Assembly (NCBI RefSeq): GCF_009848685.1
Contig: NZ_WXTX01000010.1
Span: 1-64,000 of the forward strand
Length of the DNA stretch: 64,000 nucleotides
Source of the DNA: Andreprevotia sp. IGB-42
GTDB taxonomy: Bacteria > Pseudomonadota > Gammaproteobacteria > Burkholderiales > Chitinibacteraceae
Reading direction: 5' to 3'
Part shown: piece by piece, positions 33,638 to 54,572 of the stretch
How positions within the stretch are numbered: the stretch's first letter is position 1
How the letters are laid out: each line of letters starts with the position of its first letter
Notes under the pieces: model-generated
What the model saw: only the letters and a program-made list of their open reading frames with translations
Databases searched by the model: none
What the model was told of the DNA's origin: nothing
Translations under genes and position numbers: made by a program

Positions 33638-34543
33638 TCAGTTCTGCTTCATCCCCGCCACCAGCGTGCTGATGTTGTAGCGGTACATGGCCAGATAGCT
33701 GGCGGCCGGGCCGCCGGCTTTGGACAGCGCATCCGAATACAGCTCGCCACCCACACTGATTTTGGCCTCGCGCGCCAGTTGCTGCAGCAGCTTGGGGTTG
33801 GTGATGTTCTCCACGAAGACCGCCTTCACCTGCTCGCGGCGGATCTGCTGCACCAGCAGCGCCACATCACGCGCGGATGCTTCTGCATCGGTATTCATGC
33901 CCTGCGGCGCCAGGAAGGTGATGCCGAAGCGCGCCGCGCAGTAGCCGAATGCATCGTGCGAAGTGATCACCTTGCGCTTGCCGGCGGCGATGGTAGCCAC
34001 CTGCTGGCGTGCCCAGCCCTCCAGTGCCACCAGTTGCTGCGTATACGCAGCGGCATGCTGCTGGTAATACGCGGCATTGGCCGGGTCGGCCTTGGCCAGT
34101 GCCACGGCGATATTGGCCACGTAGCGCTGCACGTTCACCGGGTCTTGCCAGGCGTGCGGGTCGATATTGCCGTGGTCGTGCTCGTGCACATCGCCGGCTT
34201 CTTCGGCCATCTGGCGCGGCTTGATGCCTGTAGAGGCCACCACCTGCATGCCCTTGAAGCCGGCAGCCTTGATCAGCCGCGGCATCCAGCCTTCGAAACC
34301 CAGCCCGTTCAGGAACACCACGCGCGCCTTGATGATGGCTTGCGCATCACGCGGCGCCGGCTGGAACACGTGGGCATCCTGATCCGGCCCCACCAGTGTC
34401 ACGACCTCGACCTTGTCGCCCCCCACCTCGGCCACCAGGTCACCAAGGATGGAAAAGCTCGCCACCACCGGCAGTTTGGCCGGTGCAGCCCAGCTTGCCA
34501 AAGGTACAAGCAGGGCGAGGGCGATCATCAGTTTGCGCAGCAT
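33638..34543 (-). CDS. znuA: Zinc ABC transporter substrate-binding protein ZnuA
   Basis: The 301-residue periplasmic protein is of the cluster 9 (metal) family. It has a signal peptide to about residue 19 and metal-ligand histidines in DQDAHVFQP, DPHAWQDP and TSHDAFGY, with an acidic ligand in GGELYSDAL. A short His loop, HEHDHG, lies before DPHAW, as in zinc rather than manganese binders. The ATG at 34543 lies five bases after the permease gene stop, preceded by GGAAGGA. Last gene of the zur-led operon. Confidence 0.9.
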   Translation of the reverse strand: MLRKLMIALALLVPLASWAAPAKLPVVASFSILGDLVAEVGGDKVEVVTLVGPDQDAHVFQPAPRDAQAIIKARVVFLNGLGFEGWMPRLIKAAGFKGMQVVASTGIKPRQMAEEAGDVHEHDHGNIDPHAWQDPVNVQRYVANIAVALAKADPANAAYYQQHAAAYTQQLVALEGWARQQVATIAAGKRKVITSHDAFGYCAARFGITFLAPQGMNTDAEASARDVALLVQQIRREQVKAVFVENITNPKLLQQLAREAKISVGGELYSDALSKAGGPAASYLAMYRYNISTLVAGMKQN

Positions 34544-34548
34544 GCAGG

Positions 34549-35421
34549 TCATCCTTCCAGGTGTTTGAACTTGAGTACGCGCCACAGCAGGCCGCCGTGG
34601 CTACCCAGCGCCAGCGACGCCAGGTAGCCGATGCCCGCCACCAGGATGATGCTGGGGCCGGACGGCAGGTTAGCATGATAGGAAATCAGCAGGCCCAGGT
34701 AGCCGGCCAGCATGGCAAAGCCGACTGCCACCGCCATCAGCGCCGGCAGGCTTTGCGCCCACATGCGCGCGCTGGTGGCCGGCAGCATCATCAGCCCCAC
34801 CGCCATCAGCGTGCCCAGCGCCTGGAAGCCCGCCACCAGGTTGAGTACCACCAGCACCAGGAACACGAAGTGCGCCAGCGCGCCGCCACCACTGGTTACG
34901 CGCAGGAATTCCGGATCGAAGCTTTCCACCACCAGCGGGCGGTAGAACAGCGCCAGCCCCAGCAAGGTGATGGTGGCAATGCCCGCCACCAGCAGCAGCG
35001 CCGGCGGGTCTACCGCCAGCACGGTGCCGAACAGGATGTGCATCAGGTCAACATTGCTGCCCCACTTGGACACGATCAGCACGCCGGACGCCAGCGACAG
35101 CAGGTAGAACGCGGCAAAGCTCGCATCCTCTTTCTGCTGCGTCAGCCGGGTGACGAGGCCGGATAGCAATACCACGGTCAGGCCGGCAACCAGCCCGCCG
35201 ATCGACAATGCAGTCAGCGACAGCCCATACGCGATGAAGGCAATGGCGGCGCCGGGCAGGATGGCGTGGCTCATCGCATCGCCCACCAGGCTCATCCGCC
35301 GCAGTACCAGGAACAGGCCGATCGGCGCGCAGCCCAGCGCCAGCGCAAAGCAACCCACCAGCGCCAGCCGCATGAAGGAGAACTCGACGAAGGGGCCGAG
35401 AAAAAAGTCGTACAGCATCAT
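34549..35421 (-). CDS. znuB: Zinc ABC transporter permease ZnuB
   Basis: The 290-residue ABC-3 family permease has about eight transmembrane helices and conserved segments LRRMSLVGDAMSHAILPG near residue 42 and LGTLMAVGLMMLPATSARMWA near 205. It forms the inner-membrane channel for zinc with ZnuC and ZnuA. It overlaps znuC by four bases and is followed at once by znuA. Confidence 0.92.
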   Translation of the reverse strand: MMLYDFFLGPFVEFSFMRLALVGCFALALGCAPIGLFLVLRRMSLVGDAMSHAILPGAAIAFIAYGLSLTALSIGGLVAGLTVVLLSGLVTRLTQQKEDASFAAFYLLSLASGVLIVSKWGSNVDLMHILFGTVLAVDPPALLLVAGIATITLLGLALFYRPLVVESFDPEFLRVTSGGGALAHFVFLVLVVLNLVAGFQALGTLMAVGLMMLPATSARMWAQSLPALMAVAVGFAMLAGYLGLLISYHANLPSGPSIILVAGIGYLASLALGSHGGLLWRVLKFKHLEG

Positions 35422-36179
35422 GCGGTGATCTCCTCATCGCGGTGGCAAACGGCCGCGTCCGGCACCCAGTTTTCGGCCATGCCGTTGGCGCGCAGCAGGT
35501 TGTCGCGCGTCAGCACCTCGCCGCTGCTGCCCCAGGCCACGCACTCCTTGGCCAGCAACAAGGTCTGCTCGAAGTGCTGGCGCACCTGGTCGAAGTCGTG
35601 CAGCACCGCAATTACCGTGCGGCCTTCCAGCTTCCAGTGCTCGACGATCTGCAGCAGGTCATTGGTGGTGCGCGCATCGATGGCAGTGAACGGTTCATCC
35701 AGCAGGATCAGCGGCGCATCCTGCAGCAGGATGCGGGCAAACAGCACGCGCTGGAATTGCCCGCTGGACAGCGCACTGACCGGGCGGTCTTCAAACCCCG
35801 CCAGGCCAACACGGCCAAGCGCCGATGCCGCGCGCTCGCGGTCCGCATGCGAGGTGCCACCAAACCAGCGCTGCCAGCGGCCGGCCTCGTTGGCAGCGCC
35901 CAGCAGGATGGTATCGAGCACGCTGATGGGAAACTGCCGCTCGATATTGGCCTGCTGCGGCAGGTAGGCCAGCTGGCCACGCGCAATGCCATCGAAGCTC
36001 ACCCGGCCATGATCGGGCGAGATCAGCCCGACAATGGCCTTGAGCAGCGTGCTTTTGCCGGCGCCATTGGGGCCGACGATGGCGGTGCTGCTGCCCAGCC
36101 GGAACGTACCGGATACATGGTGCACCACCGGGTGCCGCTGGTAAGACAGCGTGAGGTTTTCCAGTGCCAGCGCGGTCAT
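35418..36179 (-). CDS. znuC: Zinc ABC transporter ATPase ZnuC
   Basis: The 253-residue ABC ATPase has Walker A VGPNGAGKST, Q-loop YLPQQANIERQFP, signature LSSGQFQR, Walker B LILLDEPF and the switch His in VLHDFDQ. It drives zinc uptake with ZnuB. The ATG at 36179 overlaps the stop of the small His-rich gene (ATGA); an in-frame GTG-type start further upstream is less likely. Confidence 0.92.
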   Translation of the reverse strand: MTALALENLTLSYQRHPVVHHVSGTFRLGSSTAIVGPNGAGKSTLLKAIVGLISPDHGRVSFDGIARGQLAYLPQQANIERQFPISVLDTILLGAANEAGRWQRWFGGTSHADRERAASALGRVGLAGFEDRPVSALSSGQFQRVLFARILLQDAPLILLDEPFTAIDARTTNDLLQIVEHWKLEGRTVIAVLHDFDQVRQHFEQTLLLAKECVAWGSSGEVLTRDNLLRANGMAENWVPDAAVCHRDEEITA

Positions 36180-36385
36180 GACAGTGCCCACCAGGCAGAC
36201 AGCCAGAGCGCGGCAATCAGCGGCAGCACCAGCAGCACGCGCCGCCAGGACGGCATGGCCAGCAGCGTGGGGCGTTGCGGCCGGATATGCGCATGCGCGT
36301 GCTGATGGCTGGCTTGATGGCCGTTTTGATGGTTGTGCTGAGCAGGGCCCGGATGAGCGGGGTGATGATGGTGTGCGTGGTTCAT
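36176..36385 (-). CDS. Small His-rich single-pass membrane protein in the zinc operon
   Basis: The 69-residue protein has 13 histidines among its first 34 residues (it starts MNHAHHHHPAHPG), then a short basic linker and one hydrophobic helix at about 49-67 (VLLVLPLIAALWLSAWWALS). Its ATG overlaps the zur stop and its stop overlaps the znuC start, both as ATGA, so it is translationally coupled on both sides and very likely real. I do not recognise a named family. By composition and place it should bind zinc or nickel at the membrane and hand it to, or buffer it for, ZnuBC or Zur. This role is inference. Confidence 0.75.
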   Translation of the reverse strand: MNHAHHHHPAHPGPAQHNHQNGHQASHQHAHAHIRPQRPTLLAMPSWRRVLLVLPLIAALWLSAWWALS

Positions 36386-36831
36386 ACGGTGACTACCTGG
36401 CAGTTGCGGCACAGGCCCTTGATTTCCAGTTCGTGCTGGTTCATTGCAAAGCCGGAACCGGCGAGTTCGCGGCGCATGGTTTCCATCCACAGCGGCGAAT
36501 CGAGTTCCTCCACGCCATGGCAGCGCTCGCATACCAGCAGCACGCCCTGGTGCGGCGCGTGAAAGGTGGGGCACACCACGAAGGACTGCAGGCTGTCGAT
36601 ACGGTGCACGATGCCGGCCGCCACCAGGAAATCCAGCGTGCGGTACACGGTTGGCGGCGATGCGCCCGGCCGCTGCTTCTGCAGCGCGGCCAGCAAGTCG
36701 TAGGCCTTGATCGGACCGTGATTGGCGAGCAATAGCGACAACACCTCGCGGCGCAGTTCGGTAAGCTTCTCTCCGCGTGCGGCAAGCCAGCTTTCGGCAG
36801 TATCGAGTGGGGCATCCATGATGCGTGCCAT
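36382..36831 (-). CDS. zur: Zinc uptake regulator Zur (Fur family)
   Basis: The 149-residue Fur-family repressor has an N-terminal winged helix (LTELRREVLSLLLANHGPIKAYDLL, PPTVYRTLDFLVAAGIVHR) and a C-terminal dimerisation domain with metal ligands in FHAPHQGVLLVCERCHGVEE and a final CRNC. It is placed as Zur because it heads the znu operon. The start is either the ATG at 36831 or the one at 36819; neither has a good ribosome site. Two candidate Zur operators lie just upstream, so it is probably autoregulated. Confidence 0.9.
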   Translation of the reverse strand: MARIMDAPLDTAESWLAARGEKLTELRREVLSLLLANHGPIKAYDLLAALQKQRPGASPPTVYRTLDFLVAAGIVHRIDSLQSFVVCPTFHAPHQGVLLVCERCHGVEELDSPLWMETMRRELAGSGFAMNQHELEIKGLCRNCQVVTV

Positions 36832-36849
36832 CTGCAGGGGTAAAGATGC

Positions 36850-36889
36850 AATGTTATTACATTTTGCAGCGTAATGTAATGTTATTACA
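36850..36889. promoter_or_regulatory. Candidate tandem Zur operators
   Basis: AATGTTATTACA occurs twice as a direct repeat, at 36850-36861 and 36878-36889, starts 28 bases apart. Each lies in a palindrome-like context (AATGT-TATT-ACATT, and TGTAAT-GTT-ATTACA). This AT-rich dyad pattern resembles known Zur boxes and sits 19 bases upstream of the zur ATG, in the region shared with the divergent tolQ gene. Confidence 0.65.
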
Positions 36890-37094
36890 CCACCTTCCGG
36901 CCTGGCGATACGGCTGGGCAAGATGTCACAGCCGGTGCGGCCAAGCAGACGGTATACTTTCCGCCTGTTGACGAACCCCGAATGCGTGTTTGCCGCGTTC
37001 AATACACCGGTACGCTGTCCATCTCGGGCGGCAAGCCATTGCAATCACACCGAAACCGCGCAGCCACAGGCGCGCACCCACCACGGAGCAGGCA

Positions 37095-37772
37095 GTGACC
37101 CCTACTACTGACGACATGTCGATTATCTCGCTGGTACTGAACGCCAGCCTGGTGGTGCAGCTGGTGATGGGGCTGTTGATGGTGCTGTCGCTATTGTCCT
37201 GGTGGCATATCTTCAGCAAGTTCTTCACCGTCAAGCACGCCACCAGCCAGAGCGCCGATTTCGAAGACCGCTTCTGGGGTGGCTCGGACCTGAACGGCCT
37301 GTACGACCAGACGCGGCGCAACCACGCCATCGGCATGGAAAAAATCTTCATTGCCGGCTTTACCGAATTCCAGAAGTTGCGCCAGCGCGGTGGCATGGAA
37401 TTGTCGGACGTGATGGATGGCTCGCGCCGCGCGATGCGCGCATCGTCGCAGCGTGAACTCGATTACCTCGACAAGCACACGTCCTTCCTGGCATCAGTAG
37501 GCTCGGTATCGCCGTATATCGGCCTGTTCGGCACCGTGTGGGGCATCATGCATGCGTTCACCGGCCTCGCCAACGTCGGCCAGGCCACGCTGGCCACCGT
37601 GGCGCCAGGCATTGCCGAATCGCTGGTGGCTACCGCCATCGGCCTGTTCGCAGCCATCCCGGCTACCGTGGCGTACAACCGCTTTGCGCATGATGTCGAT
37701 GCGCTGGCCAGCCGCTTTGATACCTTCATCGAAGAATTCTCCAACATCCTGCAGCGGCAGGCCGCCAAGTAA
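37095..37772 (+). CDS. tolQ: Tol-Pal system proton channel protein TolQ
   Basis: The 225-residue protein has the MotA/TolQ/ExbB layout: a first transmembrane helix at about 12-35, a cytoplasmic loop, and two further helices at about 135-160 and 170-195 with the conserved VSPYIGLFGTVWGIM and ESLVATAIGLFAAIPA. With TolR it uses proton flow to energise TolA. A GTG at 37095 has GGAG six bases upstream. The ATG at 37116 has no ribosome site, so the GTG is preferred. The usual ybgC gene is absent; zur is divergent here. Confidence 0.93.
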   Translation: MTPTTDDMSIISLVLNASLVVQLVMGLLMVLSLLSWWHIFSKFFTVKHATSQSADFEDRFWGGSDLNGLYDQTRRNHAIGMEKIFIAGFTEFQKLRQRGGMELSDVMDGSRRAMRASSQRELDYLDKHTSFLASVGSVSPYIGLFGTVWGIMHAFTGLANVGQATLATVAPGIAESLVATAIGLFAAIPATVAYNRFAHDVDALASRFDTFIEEFSNILQRQAAK

Positions 37773-37784
37773 GGAGGCGCCACC

Positions 37785-38204
37785 ATGGCCCGTTCCAGCC
37801 GCCGCCCGCGCCGCTCGATGAACCAGATCAACGTCGTGCCGTATATCGACGTGATGCTGGTGCTGCTGGTCATCTTCATGGTGACCACGCCGATGATGCA
37901 GCCCGGCGTGATCAACCTGCCCAAGGTGGGCAAGGCCGACCGCGACATCAGCGCCGAGCCGCTGCGCGTGGCCATCGGCGCCGAAGGCGCACTGACCGTC
38001 ACCGACAAGAACCAGTCGGAAAAAGTAGCCGATGTCGACGCCATGGTGGCGCTGCTGCGCGGCAAGCTCGCCGGCAACACCGACCGCCCGGTGGTGATCG
38101 AGGGCGACAAGACCGTGCGCTACGAAACCGTGGTCAACGTGATGGATGCGCTGCGCAAAGCTGAAATCGCACGGGTCGGGCTGATGGTCCAGCCGGGGAA
38201 ATAA
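37785..38204 (+). CDS. tolR: Tol-Pal system protein TolR
   Basis: The 139-residue ExbD/TolR family protein has an Arg-rich N-terminus and one transmembrane helix at about 20-42 with the proton-relay Asp in NVVPYIDVMLVLLVIFMV. A periplasmic peptidoglycan-interacting domain follows. It works with TolQ. It lies 12 bases after tolQ and six bases before tolA. Confidence 0.95.
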   Translation: MARSSRRPRRSMNQINVVPYIDVMLVLLVIFMVTTPMMQPGVINLPKVGKADRDISAEPLRVAIGAEGALTVTDKNQSEKVADVDAMVALLRGKLAGNTDRPVVIEGDKTVRYETVVNVMDALRKAEIARVGLMVQPGK

Positions 38205-38210
38205 GCGCCG

Positions 38211-39092
38211 ATGAGCGATCCGCGCGTAGCCAACCGCGAAGACCACCAGATCCTGTCGCTGTTCATGGCGATTGCCATCCACGTATTGCTGGTGGTGTGG
38301 ATGGTGTTTGCCGTGCACTGGAAAACCCAGAAGCCCGCCGCGATCGAAGTCGAGCTGTGGGGCGGCCCGCCGCCAGCCGCCGTGCGCGAGCCTGAGCCCG
38401 TGGTCGAGCAACCGGTGGTCAGGCCGCCCAAGCCGGCACCGGTGGTGGAAAAGCCCGAGCCCGCCGTGAAGGACCCGGACATTGCCACCGGCAAGGCCAG
38501 GCCCACGCCGGTTGCCACACCCAGGCCGACGGTGACGCCGCGCCCCAGCATCACACCGAAACCGACACTGGCGCCCAAACCCACGCTGAAGCCCACCGTG
38601 GCCCCAACGCCGCAAGCCACGCTCACGGTCAAACCGACCGCCAAGTCGGCCAAACCGGTGGCGCCCAAGGAAGACGCGTTCAGCGCCGCATTGAGTGAAG
38701 GCGCCAAGGCGCCGGCCAATGCCAAGCCGGAAGGCAAGCCCGGCGGCAACGGCAACAACGCGGCCGCCAGGGTCAACGCGCCGGGTACCGGCGTGGGTGG
38801 TGGCGGCGCGGGCAGCGACAAGCTGCGTGGCTACGGCAACAGCGTGGCGCAGCTGATCAAGAGCCGCATCGTTTATCCGGGCAGCGACAACCCCAAGGTG
38901 GAATTCAAGATCACCCTGTTCCCGGATGGCACGGTACGCGAATTGAAACTGGTGGGCGGCGATGGCAATGCGCAGTGGCAGGAAGCGGTAACCCGCGCCA
39001 TCCAGAGCGTGGGCGGCTTTCCGCCACCGCCGGCCGGCATCACCTACGATCAGGTCAAGACATTGAACTTCTCTTTCCGTCCCAAAGACTGA
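38211..39092 (+). CDS. tolA: Tol-Pal system protein TolA, with a Pro/Thr/Lys-rich domain II
   Basis: The 293-residue protein has a transmembrane helix at about 18-38 (FMAIAIHVLLVVWMVF) and a long periplasmic linker. The C-terminal TolA/TonB-type domain is at about 200-293 (YGNSVAQLIKSRIVYPG, VEFKITLFPDGTVREL). The linker is built of repeated short Pro-Thr-Lys units (PTLAPKPTLKPT and similar, about residues 60-150) instead of the Ala/Lys helical domain II of E. coli. It links the TolQR motor to Pal and TolB during constriction. It lies between tolR (6 bases) and tolB (60 bases). Confidence 0.93.
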   Translation: MSDPRVANREDHQILSLFMAIAIHVLLVVWMVFAVHWKTQKPAAIEVELWGGPPPAAVREPEPVVEQPVVRPPKPAPVVEKPEPAVKDPDIATGKARPTPVATPRPTVTPRPSITPKPTLAPKPTLKPTVAPTPQATLTVKPTAKSAKPVAPKEDAFSAALSEGAKAPANAKPEGKPGGNGNNAAARVNAPGTGVGGGGAGSDKLRGYGNSVAQLIKSRIVYPGSDNPKVEFKITLFPDGTVRELKLVGGDGNAQWQEAVTRAIQSVGGFPPPPAGITYDQVKTLNFSFRPKD

Positions 39093-39152
39093 TGAAAGAC
39101 TGATGGAAAGCCCGGCACGAAGGCCGATTGAACGCATGAACAGGAGCACAGG

Positions 39153-40454
39153 ATGAACCGATTGCTGCACAGCCTGAAATACACCCGCCAGCTGCTGGCC
39201 GCCACCGCCGTGCTGCTGGGCGTGATGAGCGCAGCCCATGCGGACATGACCATCGAAGTGGTGGGCACCGGCGCCAGCCAGTTCCCCATCGCCATTGCGC
39301 CGTTCCAGAACGAGCAGGGGCAGAAGCAGCCGGTCACGCCGGTGGTGGGCGATGACCTCACCCGCTCGGGCCTGTTCAAGGTGATCGGTGCCGGTGACCT
39401 GTCCCCCGTGCCGTATACGGTGGAGCAGATCAACAACGGCCCGCTGAAATCACGCGGTGCGCAAACGGTGCTGGTGGGCACCGTAGTGCCCGATGGCGAT
39501 AGCTTCCTCGTCACTGCCACACTGGTCGACGTGGCGACGAAGAACGTCGTGGTGACCTTCCAGCGCAAGGCCACCGCCGGGCAGATGCGCCGTACCGCGC
39601 ACCAGATTGCCGACGTGATCTACCAGAAACTGACCGGCGAGCCGGGTGCATTCAACTCGCGCATTGCCTACGTACTCAAGCAAGGCAAGCGCTTCGAGCT
39701 GCAGGTGGCCGATGCCGATGGCTACGGCGCGCAAGCGGTACTGGCATCCAACCAGCCCATCATGTCGCCCAAGTGGTCGCCAGACGGCGGGCGCCTGGCG
39801 TATGTCTCGTTCGAGGACCAGAAACCCATCGTCTACGGCCAGGACCTGAGCAGCGGCAAGCGCTGGAAGATCGCCGCGTTCAAGGGCAGCAACTCGGCGC
39901 CGGCCTGGGCGCCCAATGGCAAGCAACTGGCTGTCACGCTGACGCGTGACGGTGGCTCGCAGGTGTTCATCGTCAACGCCGACGGCAGCGGCAGCCCGCG
40001 CCGGCTGACCACGGTAGGCGAAATCAATACCGAAGCGAGCTTCAGCCCGGATGGCGGCAGCGTGCTGTTCACGTCCGACCGTGGCGGCAGCCCGCAGATC
40101 TACCGCCAGGCAGTGAACGGCGGCGGCGCGGAACGGCTGACATTCCAGAATGGCTATAACGCATCGGGCAAGCTCAGCCCGGATGGCAAGACCATGACCT
40201 TGATCACCCGCACCGAGCGCGGCTTCCAGGTGGCGGTGATGGACATGGCCAGCCGCCAGATCCAGGCGCTGACCGATACCGGCCTCGATGATGCGCCGAG
40301 CTTTGCCTCCAACGGCCGCATGATCCTGTACGAAACAGACGTGGGCGGCCGTGGTGCGCTGGCCGCGGTATCCAGCGACGGCCGCGTGAAGCAGCGCCTG
40401 CGTTCCACATCCGGCGATGTACGCCAGCCGGCATGGGGCCCGTTGTTGAAATAA
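39153..40454 (+). CDS. tolB: Tol-Pal system beta-propeller protein TolB
   Basis: The 433-residue periplasmic protein has a signal peptide (cleavage near residue 29, SAAHAD), an N-terminal alpha/beta domain and a six-bladed propeller of WD40-like PD40 repeats (SPKWSPDGGRLAYVS, APAWAPNGKQLAV, EASFSPDGGSVLF). It binds Pal and TolA. The start follows AGGAG directly upstream of the ATG. Order and spacing match the standard tol operon. Confidence 0.97.
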   Translation: MNRLLHSLKYTRQLLAATAVLLGVMSAAHADMTIEVVGTGASQFPIAIAPFQNEQGQKQPVTPVVGDDLTRSGLFKVIGAGDLSPVPYTVEQINNGPLKSRGAQTVLVGTVVPDGDSFLVTATLVDVATKNVVVTFQRKATAGQMRRTAHQIADVIYQKLTGEPGAFNSRIAYVLKQGKRFELQVADADGYGAQAVLASNQPIMSPKWSPDGGRLAYVSFEDQKPIVYGQDLSSGKRWKIAAFKGSNSAPAWAPNGKQLAVTLTRDGGSQVFIVNADGSGSPRRLTTVGEINTEASFSPDGGSVLFTSDRGGSPQIYRQAVNGGGAERLTFQNGYNASGKLSPDGKTMTLITRTERGFQVAVMDMASRQIQALTDTGLDDAPSFASNGRMILYETDVGGRGALAAVSSDGRVKQRLRSTSGDVRQPAWGPLLK

Positions 40455-40554
40455 ACTGCAGAAAGATCGAATCACGATGTGGGCCGTGCGGGGAATTTTT
40501 CCCGTTCGTCATGGCCCAAAGCAATTGGATTTTGAACCGCCCTTGGAGAACAGC

Positions 40555-41106
40555 ATGAAGAAACTTGCCGCCAGTCTGTTGATGACAGCGCTGCTTGCCG
40601 CCTGCGCCAGCCAGCAAACCACCCAGCCGCCCGTGGCGCCGATCACCGACAAGACCGGCACCGATACCAGCGCCACCACCAACCCGGCCACCGTTGACCT
40701 CACCAAGGGCAGCACCACCGATGCCAAGGGTTACAACGTGCTGACCGACCCGAACAACATCCTGTCCAGCCGCCGCATCTACTTCGATTACGATTCGTAC
40801 AGCGTGAAGCCGGAATTCAACGACGTGGTCGAAGCGCATTCCAAGTACCTGAACGAGCACAAGGAAGCCAAGCTGATCGTGCAGGGCAATACCGACAACC
40901 GCGGTACCGCCGAATACAACCTGGCACTGGGCCAGAAGCGTGCGGACGCGGTGAAAAAGCAGATGAATGCGCTGGGCGTGAACGACAGCCAGCTGGAAAC
41001 CGTGAGCTTCGGCAAGGAAAAGCCGCTTGAAGGCGCCGATACCGAAGAGGCATGGGCACGCAACCGCCGTGCCGAACTGGTGTACGACGGCGAAGCGGCC
41101 AAGTAA
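40555..41106 (+). CDS. pal: Peptidoglycan-associated lipoprotein Pal
   Basis: The 183-residue lipoprotein has lipobox LLAAC with Cys17 as the lipidation site. A disordered Thr/Pro linker and an OmpA-like domain at about 70-180 with the peptidoglycan-binding NTDNRGTAEYNLALGQKRA follow. It anchors the outer membrane to the cell wall. The ATG at 40555 is preceded by TTGGAGAA. It is separated from tolB by 100 bases, which may hold an extra promoter. Confidence 0.97.
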   Translation: MKKLAASLLMTALLAACASQQTTQPPVAPITDKTGTDTSATTNPATVDLTKGSTTDAKGYNVLTDPNNILSSRRIYFDYDSYSVKPEFNDVVEAHSKYLNEHKEAKLIVQGNTDNRGTAEYNLALGQKRADAVKKQMNALGVNDSQLETVSFGKEKPLEGADTEEAWARNRRAELVYDGEAAK

Positions 41107-53315: not shown

Positions 53316-54353
53316 TCAATGTGGATGCAATGGCGCGGCGGGCTCAATGGGAATCACGCGCCCGCCCGCCGGCGCATAACGCCAGTCGGGCTGCAGCGTC
53401 ACGTGGTCGATACCGAAGCGCGCTTTCAACAGCGTGGCCAGCCGCAGCCGCAACGCGGGCCATTCCTCGCCATGCGCCACCACCAGGTGCGCGGACAACG
53501 CCACGCGCGCGCGGCCCAGGTTCCACACATGCAGGTCGTGTACTTCGTTGACGCCGGCCTCGGCAGCCAGTGCCTGGCCGATATCGTTCAGGCTCAGGTG
53601 GCTGGGCACGCCATCCATCAGCTCGTGCGTGGATTGGCGCAGGATCTGCCACGTGGAGCGCAGGATCAGCAGCGATACCGCCACCGACAGGATGGGGTCG
53701 ATCGGCAGCCAGCCGGTAAACCAGATCACCGCCCCCGCTGCAATCGCAGCCACCGAACCCAGCAGATCGCCCAGCACGTGGATCAACGCGGCGCGGCTAT
53801 TCAGGTTGTCATGATCGTGCGACAGCGCCCATGCCGAAATCACGTTGACGCACAGGCCGATCACCGCAATCACCATCACGCCCAAGCCATTGACCGGCGC
53901 CGGGTTGCGCAGCCGCAGCACCGCCTCCACGCAGATCCACACCACCAGCGCGATCATCGCCAGGCTATTGACCAGCGCGCCGATCAGTTCGGCGCGCGCA
54001 TAGCCATACGATTGCCGCGTATCGGCCGGGCGCTGGCCAATGTAATTGGCAAGCAGCGCCAGTGCCAGCGCAGCGGTATCGGTGAGCATGTGGCCGGCAT
54101 CGGAAATCAGCGCCAGCGAGCCCGTCCACCAGCCCCCAAACAATTCAACCAGCGCAAAGCCACCGGTTACCGCCAGTGCCAGCAGCAGGCGCCGCTGGCT
54201 GGTCTGCGCAGCGTGATCGTGATGATGGTGGCTGCGGTCGAACGTATGGTCGTGATCGGCGTTATGCCCGCCGGGCTGGTCATGCGGATGGGTATGGGCG
54301 CGGTGCCCATCGGACTGTTCATGAGGATGGTCGTGCGGGTGTGCGTGACCCAT
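53316..54353 (-). CDS. Cation diffusion facilitator (zinc exporter type) with His-rich N-terminus
   Basis: The 345-residue protein starts with 17 histidines in its first 48 residues (MGHAHPHDHPHE and later HHHHDH). Six transmembrane helices carry the two metal-site motifs SDAGHMLTD (H-x3-D) and HVLGDLLGS (H-x3-D). The C-terminal cytoplasmic domain ends in HDLHVWNLG and beyond. These mark a ZitB/CzcD-type Zn2+/H+ antiporter. The ATG at 54353 is preferred to a GTG three codons earlier. Confidence 0.92.
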   Translation of the reverse strand: MGHAHPHDHPHEQSDGHRAHTHPHDQPGGHNADHDHTFDRSHHHHDHAAQTSQRRLLLALAVTGGFALVELFGGWWTGSLALISDAGHMLTDTAALALALLANYIGQRPADTRQSYGYARAELIGALVNSLAMIALVVWICVEAVLRLRNPAPVNGLGVMVIAVIGLCVNVISAWALSHDHDNLNSRAALIHVLGDLLGSVAAIAAGAVIWFTGWLPIDPILSVAVSLLILRSTWQILRQSTHELMDGVPSHLSLNDIGQALAAEAGVNEVHDLHVWNLGRARVALSAHLVVAHGEEWPALRLRLATLLKARFGIDHVTLQPDWRYAPAGGRVIPIEPAAPLHPH

Positions 54354-54572
54354 GGCGTTCACTCGGTTGGGGCAGGGCTAGCGCGGCGCGATGCCGCGGC
54401 CGCCATGCCTGTCCATTATCCAGCATATGGCCGGCGCAATCACCCGCGCACCGCGCTGCGATGGCGATGCACGGGTGTAAATATCACCGCCTGCGCACCG
54501 CACTATCCGGCGGCTGGCTGCCGGTTGGTGGCAGAGCAAGTACAATCGTCTTTTTTACCCGCCGACCATGCC

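Follow-up and report, generated by a model that had tools for sequence, protein, structure and literature searches.

Upstream of the genes for a zinc ABC importer in Andreprevotia sp. IGB-42 lies the gene for a 69-residue, one-helix membrane peptide that, judged from comparative sequence analysis, is probably a fourth, membrane-embedded subunit of a Zur-regulated importer of the AztABC/Zni/Tro type. The gene occupies positions 36176..36385 on the minus strand of the window, by which we mean the whole 64,000-nucleotide stretch of DNA that was analyzed. The entire operon runs on this strand, and the peptide frame sits between the gene for a Fur-family, Zur-like regulator (36382..36831, from a putative start; PF01475) and the ATPase gene (35418..36179; 253 residues, AztA/ZniC/TroC-type). 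It is joined to both by ATGA overlaps, its ATG overlapping the regulator stop and its TGA the ATPase ATG; a reading made earlier from the window alone, hereafter the sequence-only reading, had described both overlaps, and they were confirmed. The genes for the permease (34549..35421; 290 residues, AztB/ZniB/TroB-type) and the zinc-binding protein (33638..34585; AztC/ZniA/TroA-type; PF01297) follow. On the 5′ side of the regulator gene, two Zur-like palindromes were found by motif matching on the minus strand, one matched exactly (TGTWATNNNATWACA, 36875..36889) and one with 1 mismatch (36847..36861). A run of genes that we take to be TolQ-TolR-TolA-TolB-Pal-like (36990-41106, plus strand) adjoins the zur-zinc operon in divergent orientation.

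The names zur and znuC given to the flanking genes in the sequence-only reading hold in part. The regulator is Zur-like, at 117 bits with PRK11639 (cut-off 167), and the transporter proved nearer to AztABC than to canonical ZnuCBA as judged by model scores. The top NCBIfam models for its ATPase, permease, and binding protein were AztA (NF040873), AztB (NF040871), and AztC (NF040870), at 201, 261, and 302 bits, which all miss the cut-offs of 220, 280, and 350; against the ZnuC, ZnuB, and ZnuA models, the same three proteins reached 93.5, 70.4, and 57.8 bits, the first of these falling below the PRK09544 ZnuC cut-off of 306 bits. The succession of ATPase, permease, and binding protein downstream of a putative Zur-like box is that which defines the Zni/Tro type. 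With one Paracoccus AztD as the query, no AztD match was found in the genome of the window at E ≤ 1e-10.

The peptide itself has the layout described in the sequence-only reading, with 13 histidines in the first 34 of its 69 residues and one C-terminal helix, as confirmed by the sequence and by an AlphaFold2 model. In this model, a single helix spans residues 46-68 (36182..36250, minus strand; pLDDT 94 over residues 51-69) and contains the family-conserved R49, W61, W66, and A67, while the His-rich N-terminal tail (residues 1-34; 36284..36385, minus strand) is predicted to be disordered, with pLDDT values of 58-63 and no secondary structure over residues 1-30. The histidines are encoded by 8 CAT and 5 CAC codons, and among the stop-free stretches of all six frames, the 13 per 34 residues are the histidine maximum of the window. 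The runner-up, with 12 per 34, is the N terminus of a minus-strand frame at 53316-54362, which presumably encodes a CDF metal exporter.

To place this frame in a broader context, we examined 258 ATPase loci of Pseudomonadota, the phylum to which the peptide search was confined, and found the peptide in 187 of them, including the window's own locus and one duplicate. All of the best 80 loci of a larger number, taken from a scan with the window ATPase at one genome per species, carry a one-helix frame ending at the ATPase start. Among ATPase-family loci of relatives, 29/30 have the peptide (own locus and one duplicate from the first set included), the single peptide-less locus (L111) having a distant ATPase. 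At additional ATPase-family places, drawn from 398 genomes of the phylum, the count was 72/140, plus two weak cases, and a plasmid collection gave 6/8, the 8 being those examined out of 27 matches. The peptide was found in 0/26 loci collected with the E. coli-type ZnuC model, a set of 27 from which one was omitted as too short and of which 10 lie above the model cut-off. One candidate (L238) was dismissed as a false positive, being the end of a long upstream frame that scored 11.4 bits.

Over the conserved core, dN/dS was 0.205 in frame versus 1.1 and 2.2 in the other frames, and differences at the three codon positions numbered 1071, 563, and 2123 (the same 227 pairs at 70-97% DNA identity in both cases). 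By these substitution patterns, the peptide frame is real and coding, with a core under purifying selection; protein-level conservation of this core among relatives sets the frame apart from chance. The core consensus is SLLAxSAxxRxxxxxxxxAxLWLAIxWAVALP, in which R49 is retained in 182/183, W61 in 177/183, and W66 in 165/165 of the peptides that have a residue there. Two members (L087 and L197) lie outside the profile alignment and are absent from the counts of dN/dS, residue conservation, and charge bias (see below).

The stop of the frame lies at most 20 nt from the ATPase start in 182/187 loci and overlaps it as ATGA in 135/187. In the 400 bp upstream of the ATPase gene, 126/186 peptide loci have a Zur-like palindrome, compared with 4.0 in shuffles; its median distance from the ATPase start is 157 bp, and it is never found within 100 bp. 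At peptide-less loci, the count is 13/69 versus 1.6 in shuffles.

A profile was built from 56 peptides, 53 of them from records titled with alpha- or gammaproteobacterial taxa. When genomes were searched with it, 31 relatives had an ATPase match at E ≤ 1e-54, and in 28 of these the ATPase-adjacent frame was the top match. Of 22 matches at E ≤ 0.01, 21 lay within 300 bp of that gene. A match with E 0.004 (L137, G053:C16:5483-5569) belongs to a small genome in which no ATPase match reached E ≤ 1e-40. The window peptide, itself one of the 56 rows, scored 39.4 bits and has R49, W61, and W66. On its sequence and predicted fold, it fits the family definition of a single helix, an R...LW....W core, and an end at the ATPase start. 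As judged by these comparisons, it is the membrane helix and not the histidines that is the conserved, family-defining part.

The absence of a described family, noted in the sequence-only reading, was borne out in Pfam, NCBIfam, and the PDB. Neither the window peptide (E up to 1) nor six relatives (E up to 10) matched a Pfam or NCBIfam family, with only weak unrelated matches returned; the PDB search with the peptide profile gave one chance match, to fumarate reductase subunit D at E 0.75. The small-protein families KdpF, CydX, CbtB, and AcrZ have models in Pfam/NCBIfam, and these seven peptides matched none of them. The tail matched the NCBIfam nickel/cobalt exporter and DmeF models weakly (E 0.098 and 0.51, residues 3-33 and 3-42), and no homology to the His-rich segments of such exporters or of DmeF was found there beyond histidine composition. 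A tblastn search of the plasmid records with one 42-residue peptide gave no match, and the peptides in those records were located by position. Three plasmid records label the peptide "hypothetical protein," and two others list no gene at its place, in a collection described as having incomplete gene tables.

In a tree built from 257 distinct ATPases, presence of the peptide required 3 changes, compared with at least 54 in 200 label shuffles, the labels counting 188 loci as present, two weak members (L196 and L221) among them. The tree shows that the peptide follows one type of ATPase and permease in its inheritance. It is missing from a clade of 56 leaves with more distant ATPases; there, the upstream frame often resembles, by eye, the end of a binding protein. 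It is also absent from L235 and L254, and from an 11-leaf AztABCD-type clade nested among peptide-bearing loci; close relatives can thus dispense with the peptide. We considered AztD as its replacement, for which the support is weak at best. An AztD gene was found no more than about 2.5 kb from the ATPase gene in 3 of 9 tested genomes of this clade, and AztD-like matches also occur elsewhere in three peptide-bearing genomes (G275, G258, and weakly G390), which argues against simple replacement. Substitution by an extra permease helix found no support, the median permease length being 290 in both groups, of which the peptide-less one also includes permeases of about 400 residues. In the AztABCD-type loci (L146-L154, L179, and L182), the permease residues R18, L69, D138, Y160, M206, and A207 (window numbering) are all changed, and by sequence comparison these changes are perhaps linked to the loss of the peptide.

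The topology of the helix was predicted from its flanking charges. The 15 residues up to R49 average +1.6 and the C-terminal end 0.0; among 178 distinct peptides, the N-terminal side is the more positive in 157, equal in 21, and the less positive in 0. This bias predicts a cytoplasmic N terminus. The sequence-only reading had proposed a small metal-collecting subunit or accessory; a collector that serves the binding protein in the periplasm is contradicted by the predicted cytoplasmic tail. A definition of the peptide by its histidines did not survive comparison: a tail with at least 5 His in 20 residues occurs at 28/186 loci, and L090, one of three genomes of the window's genus, lacks it. As the sequence-only reading had suggested, His-rich frames were looked for in relatives, and tails do recur in other lineages, contrary to the refuting outcome named there. 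The His-tail label changes 9 times on the ATPase tree, which means that tails were repeatedly gained or lost. With the tail absent in one congener and recurrent elsewhere, we regard it as an option on a conserved helix. In six other loci (L252, L255, L257, L260, L268, and L273), the peptides begin alike, with a conserved HTHRHNKEGPCHFSLMSL-like segment that contains His and Cys; its sequence suggests a defined metal site more than a loose run of histidines.

We analyzed covariation in 183 peptide-permease pairs, with an effective number of 77. Corrected mutual information was highest for peptide 64 with permease 146, at 0.498, compared with 0.181 for the next pair, a largest value of 0.369 in 60 shuffles of partners within similar permeases (maxima averaging 0.287), and a top peptide-ATPase value of 0.231. 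The prevailing states are Ile-Gly (78), Val-Ala (54), and Thr-Ser (11), the rest including Ala-Val and Thr-Thr; Val-Gly (6) and Thr-Ala (5) fit constant volume poorly. On all 10 branches where both positions changed, volume changed in opposite directions, and the net change of 0.06 was lower than for any other pair with at least 6 co-changes (1571 permease and 1870 ATPase pairs), the best ATPase pair having 0.25. All-opposite change is not specific alone, being shown by 13 pairs with the permease and 13 with the ATPase, and the pair is distinguished only by its small residual. The second smallest residual belongs to peptide 64 with permease 181, which lies on a different helix. By count of co-changes, the pair ranks 2 of 9216, with ATPase control pairs reaching similar p-values, and on the ATPase tree, peptide 64 changed alone on 24 branches and permease 146 alone on 11.

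A second permease position distinguishes loci by the presence of the peptide. Permease 150 is Ser or Thr in 178/185 permeases with the peptide, compared with 4/68 without it and 0/13 of the nearest relatives that lack it. No other of the 290 permease positions shows as large a Ser/Thr contrast. W61 is lost in 6 peptides and Ser/Thr150 in 7 permeases, with both lost in 5 (Fisher 8e-8), although the W61 losses represent few events, partly on neighboring leaves. The two weak peptides (L196 and L221) lack W61 and are paired with Ile and Val at permease 150, and two loci (L107 and L180) keep W61 with Gly at this position. Couplings 61-150, 57-150, and 68-140/146 are individually weak and, taken from the alignments, consistent with one helix face in antiparallel orientation. 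In the permease model (pLDDT 86), residues 139-158 form a helix (34948..35007, minus strand), the putative docking site of the peptide. Among solved structures, PsaC (7kyp) has the fold closest to that of the permease model, with a TM score of about 0.65 and an rmsd of about 10 Å. From this covariation, we infer that the peptide binds the permease.

Position, conservation, and covariation thus support the sequence-only proposal of a small subunit or accessory protein of the importer. In the mechanism that we propose, the peptide would be made together with the permease once Zur releases the operon. Its N terminus would lie in the cytoplasm, as suggested by the charge bias, and its helix would pack antiparallel on permease helix 139-158, with residue 64 against 146 and W61 near Ser/Thr150, as suggested by the covariation. 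There, the helix may stabilize the permease or its coupling to the ATPase, by analogy with small single-helix proteins such as KdpF and CydX and, in ABC systems, CcmD and LucB. Where a His tail is present, it would be placed near the cytoplasmic exit and could hold imported zinc, either buffering it or serving as a feedback sensor within the importer itself. By analogy, this may be the role of the window tail, and the peptide may be a zinc buffer near the importer, a buffer having been the other idea of the sequence-only reading. We favor a feedback sensor or local buffer because exit histidines of a ZIP transporter are reported to be regulatory in the part of PMC10256678 that we could consult.

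Other readings account for some of these observations. The ATGA overlap with the ATPase start at 135/187 loci and the Zur-like box upstream of the peptide frame at 126/186 would also suit a leader or coupling peptide whose translation merely opens the ATPase start and whose product is irrelevant. Such a peptide would hardly be expected to show amino-acid constraint (dN/dS 0.2), near-invariant R49, W61, and W66, or covariation with permease residues, and we consider this reading unlikely. Alternatively, the window peptide could be a zinc buffer or metallochaperone in its own right, handing zinc to Zur or to cytosolic proteins and using its helix simply as a membrane anchor. This reading appears similarly improbable: it fits the 13 His per 34 residues, the predicted cytoplasmic tail, and the place of the gene between the Zur-like and ATPase genes in the window, but a His tail is found in only 28/186 loci, and the helix shows both conservation and covariation with the permease.

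The small single helix, apparently packing on a transporter, also brings to mind MgtR and MgtU, which in the portion of PMC10710835 available to us provide precedents for peptides acting on MgtB. The window peptide might likewise regulate permease turnover by recruiting or blocking a protease; its gene is, however, part of the transporter operon and not separately controlled, and we hold this to be very unlikely. The reading that we prefer remains a fourth subunit embedded in the membrane with the permease.

In open-access full-text literature, as far as its text was accessible and including work on the Zni, Azt, and Neisseria importers, we found no description of the peptide gene, the first AztABCD and TroCBA reports lying outside this scope. 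The gene is absent from some annotations and nameless in others. Importers of the AztABC/Zni/Tro type supply zinc under starvation, and the published accounts, in the parts consulted, lack a peptide component. Should the importer require a fourth subunit, reconstitutions that omit the peptide may fall short of full activity, and deletions or promoter constructs made at the ATPase start could sever the peptide gene. The covariation points to a precise predicted docking site on the permease, and the His tails could serve as a model for an ABC importer that senses the zinc it has itself delivered. A bolder generalization from these sequences, which we find possible though on balance doubtful, is that a large class of proteobacterial zinc ABC importers, among them those of N. 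gonorrhoeae, rhizobia, agrobacteria, and many pseudomonads, share an overlooked permease-completing subunit, and that in several lineages a cytoplasmic His tail added to it closes the importer when internal zinc is sufficient, which would place a feedback sensor on a separate and exchangeable subunit.

Small helix subunits are a known kind of protein, KdpF being a small single-helix subunit of a larger membrane complex. We know of no such subunit for any zinc or manganese ABC importer, and as far as the sequences tell, one with an optional His tail appears new to us. CydX, CcmD, LucB, and AcrZ, like KdpF, consist of one short helix within a larger membrane complex, and CcmD and LucB are reported to be members of ABC systems; none shares a sequence-family match with the peptide in Pfam, NCBIfam, or the PDB. 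In Bordetella bronchiseptica ZIP, cytoplasmic histidines at the zinc exit are reported, in the part of PMC10256678 consulted, to regulate zinc release and uptake; those histidines are on the transporter's own loop, whereas in the window the tail is on a separate peptide.

Among named zinc importers, AztABCD of Paracoccus denitrificans provides the closest models for the window ATPase, permease, and binding protein, yet the AztABCD-type clade, through which the comparison was made in place of the P. denitrificans locus itself, lacks the peptide, unlike the window. ZniCBA of Rhizobium leguminosarum and Klebsiella pneumoniae and TroCBA of Agrobacterium share the ATPase-permease-binding protein order of the window, and the peptide is present in R. 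leguminosarum Tri-43 (L059) and A. tumefaciens MEJ076 (L085). The Zni/Tro accounts, in the parts consulted, name three components for these importers. In R. leguminosarum UPM791, a Zur motif lies 153 bp upstream of the ATPase gene (PMC12183173, seen in part), a spacing that leaves space enough for a peptide gene; in Tri-43, a 42-residue peptide gene occupies the place between the Zur box and the ATPase gene. The Neisseria gonorrhoeae importer ZnuCBA/MntABC, for which the consulted part of a review names three genes (PMC9280163), has a peptide of 34 residues (L180, 2897-3001) in a stretch across which the plasmid-collection table lists no genes. As in the window, this peptide precedes the ATPase gene with an ATGA overlap; unlike the window peptide, it has no His tail.
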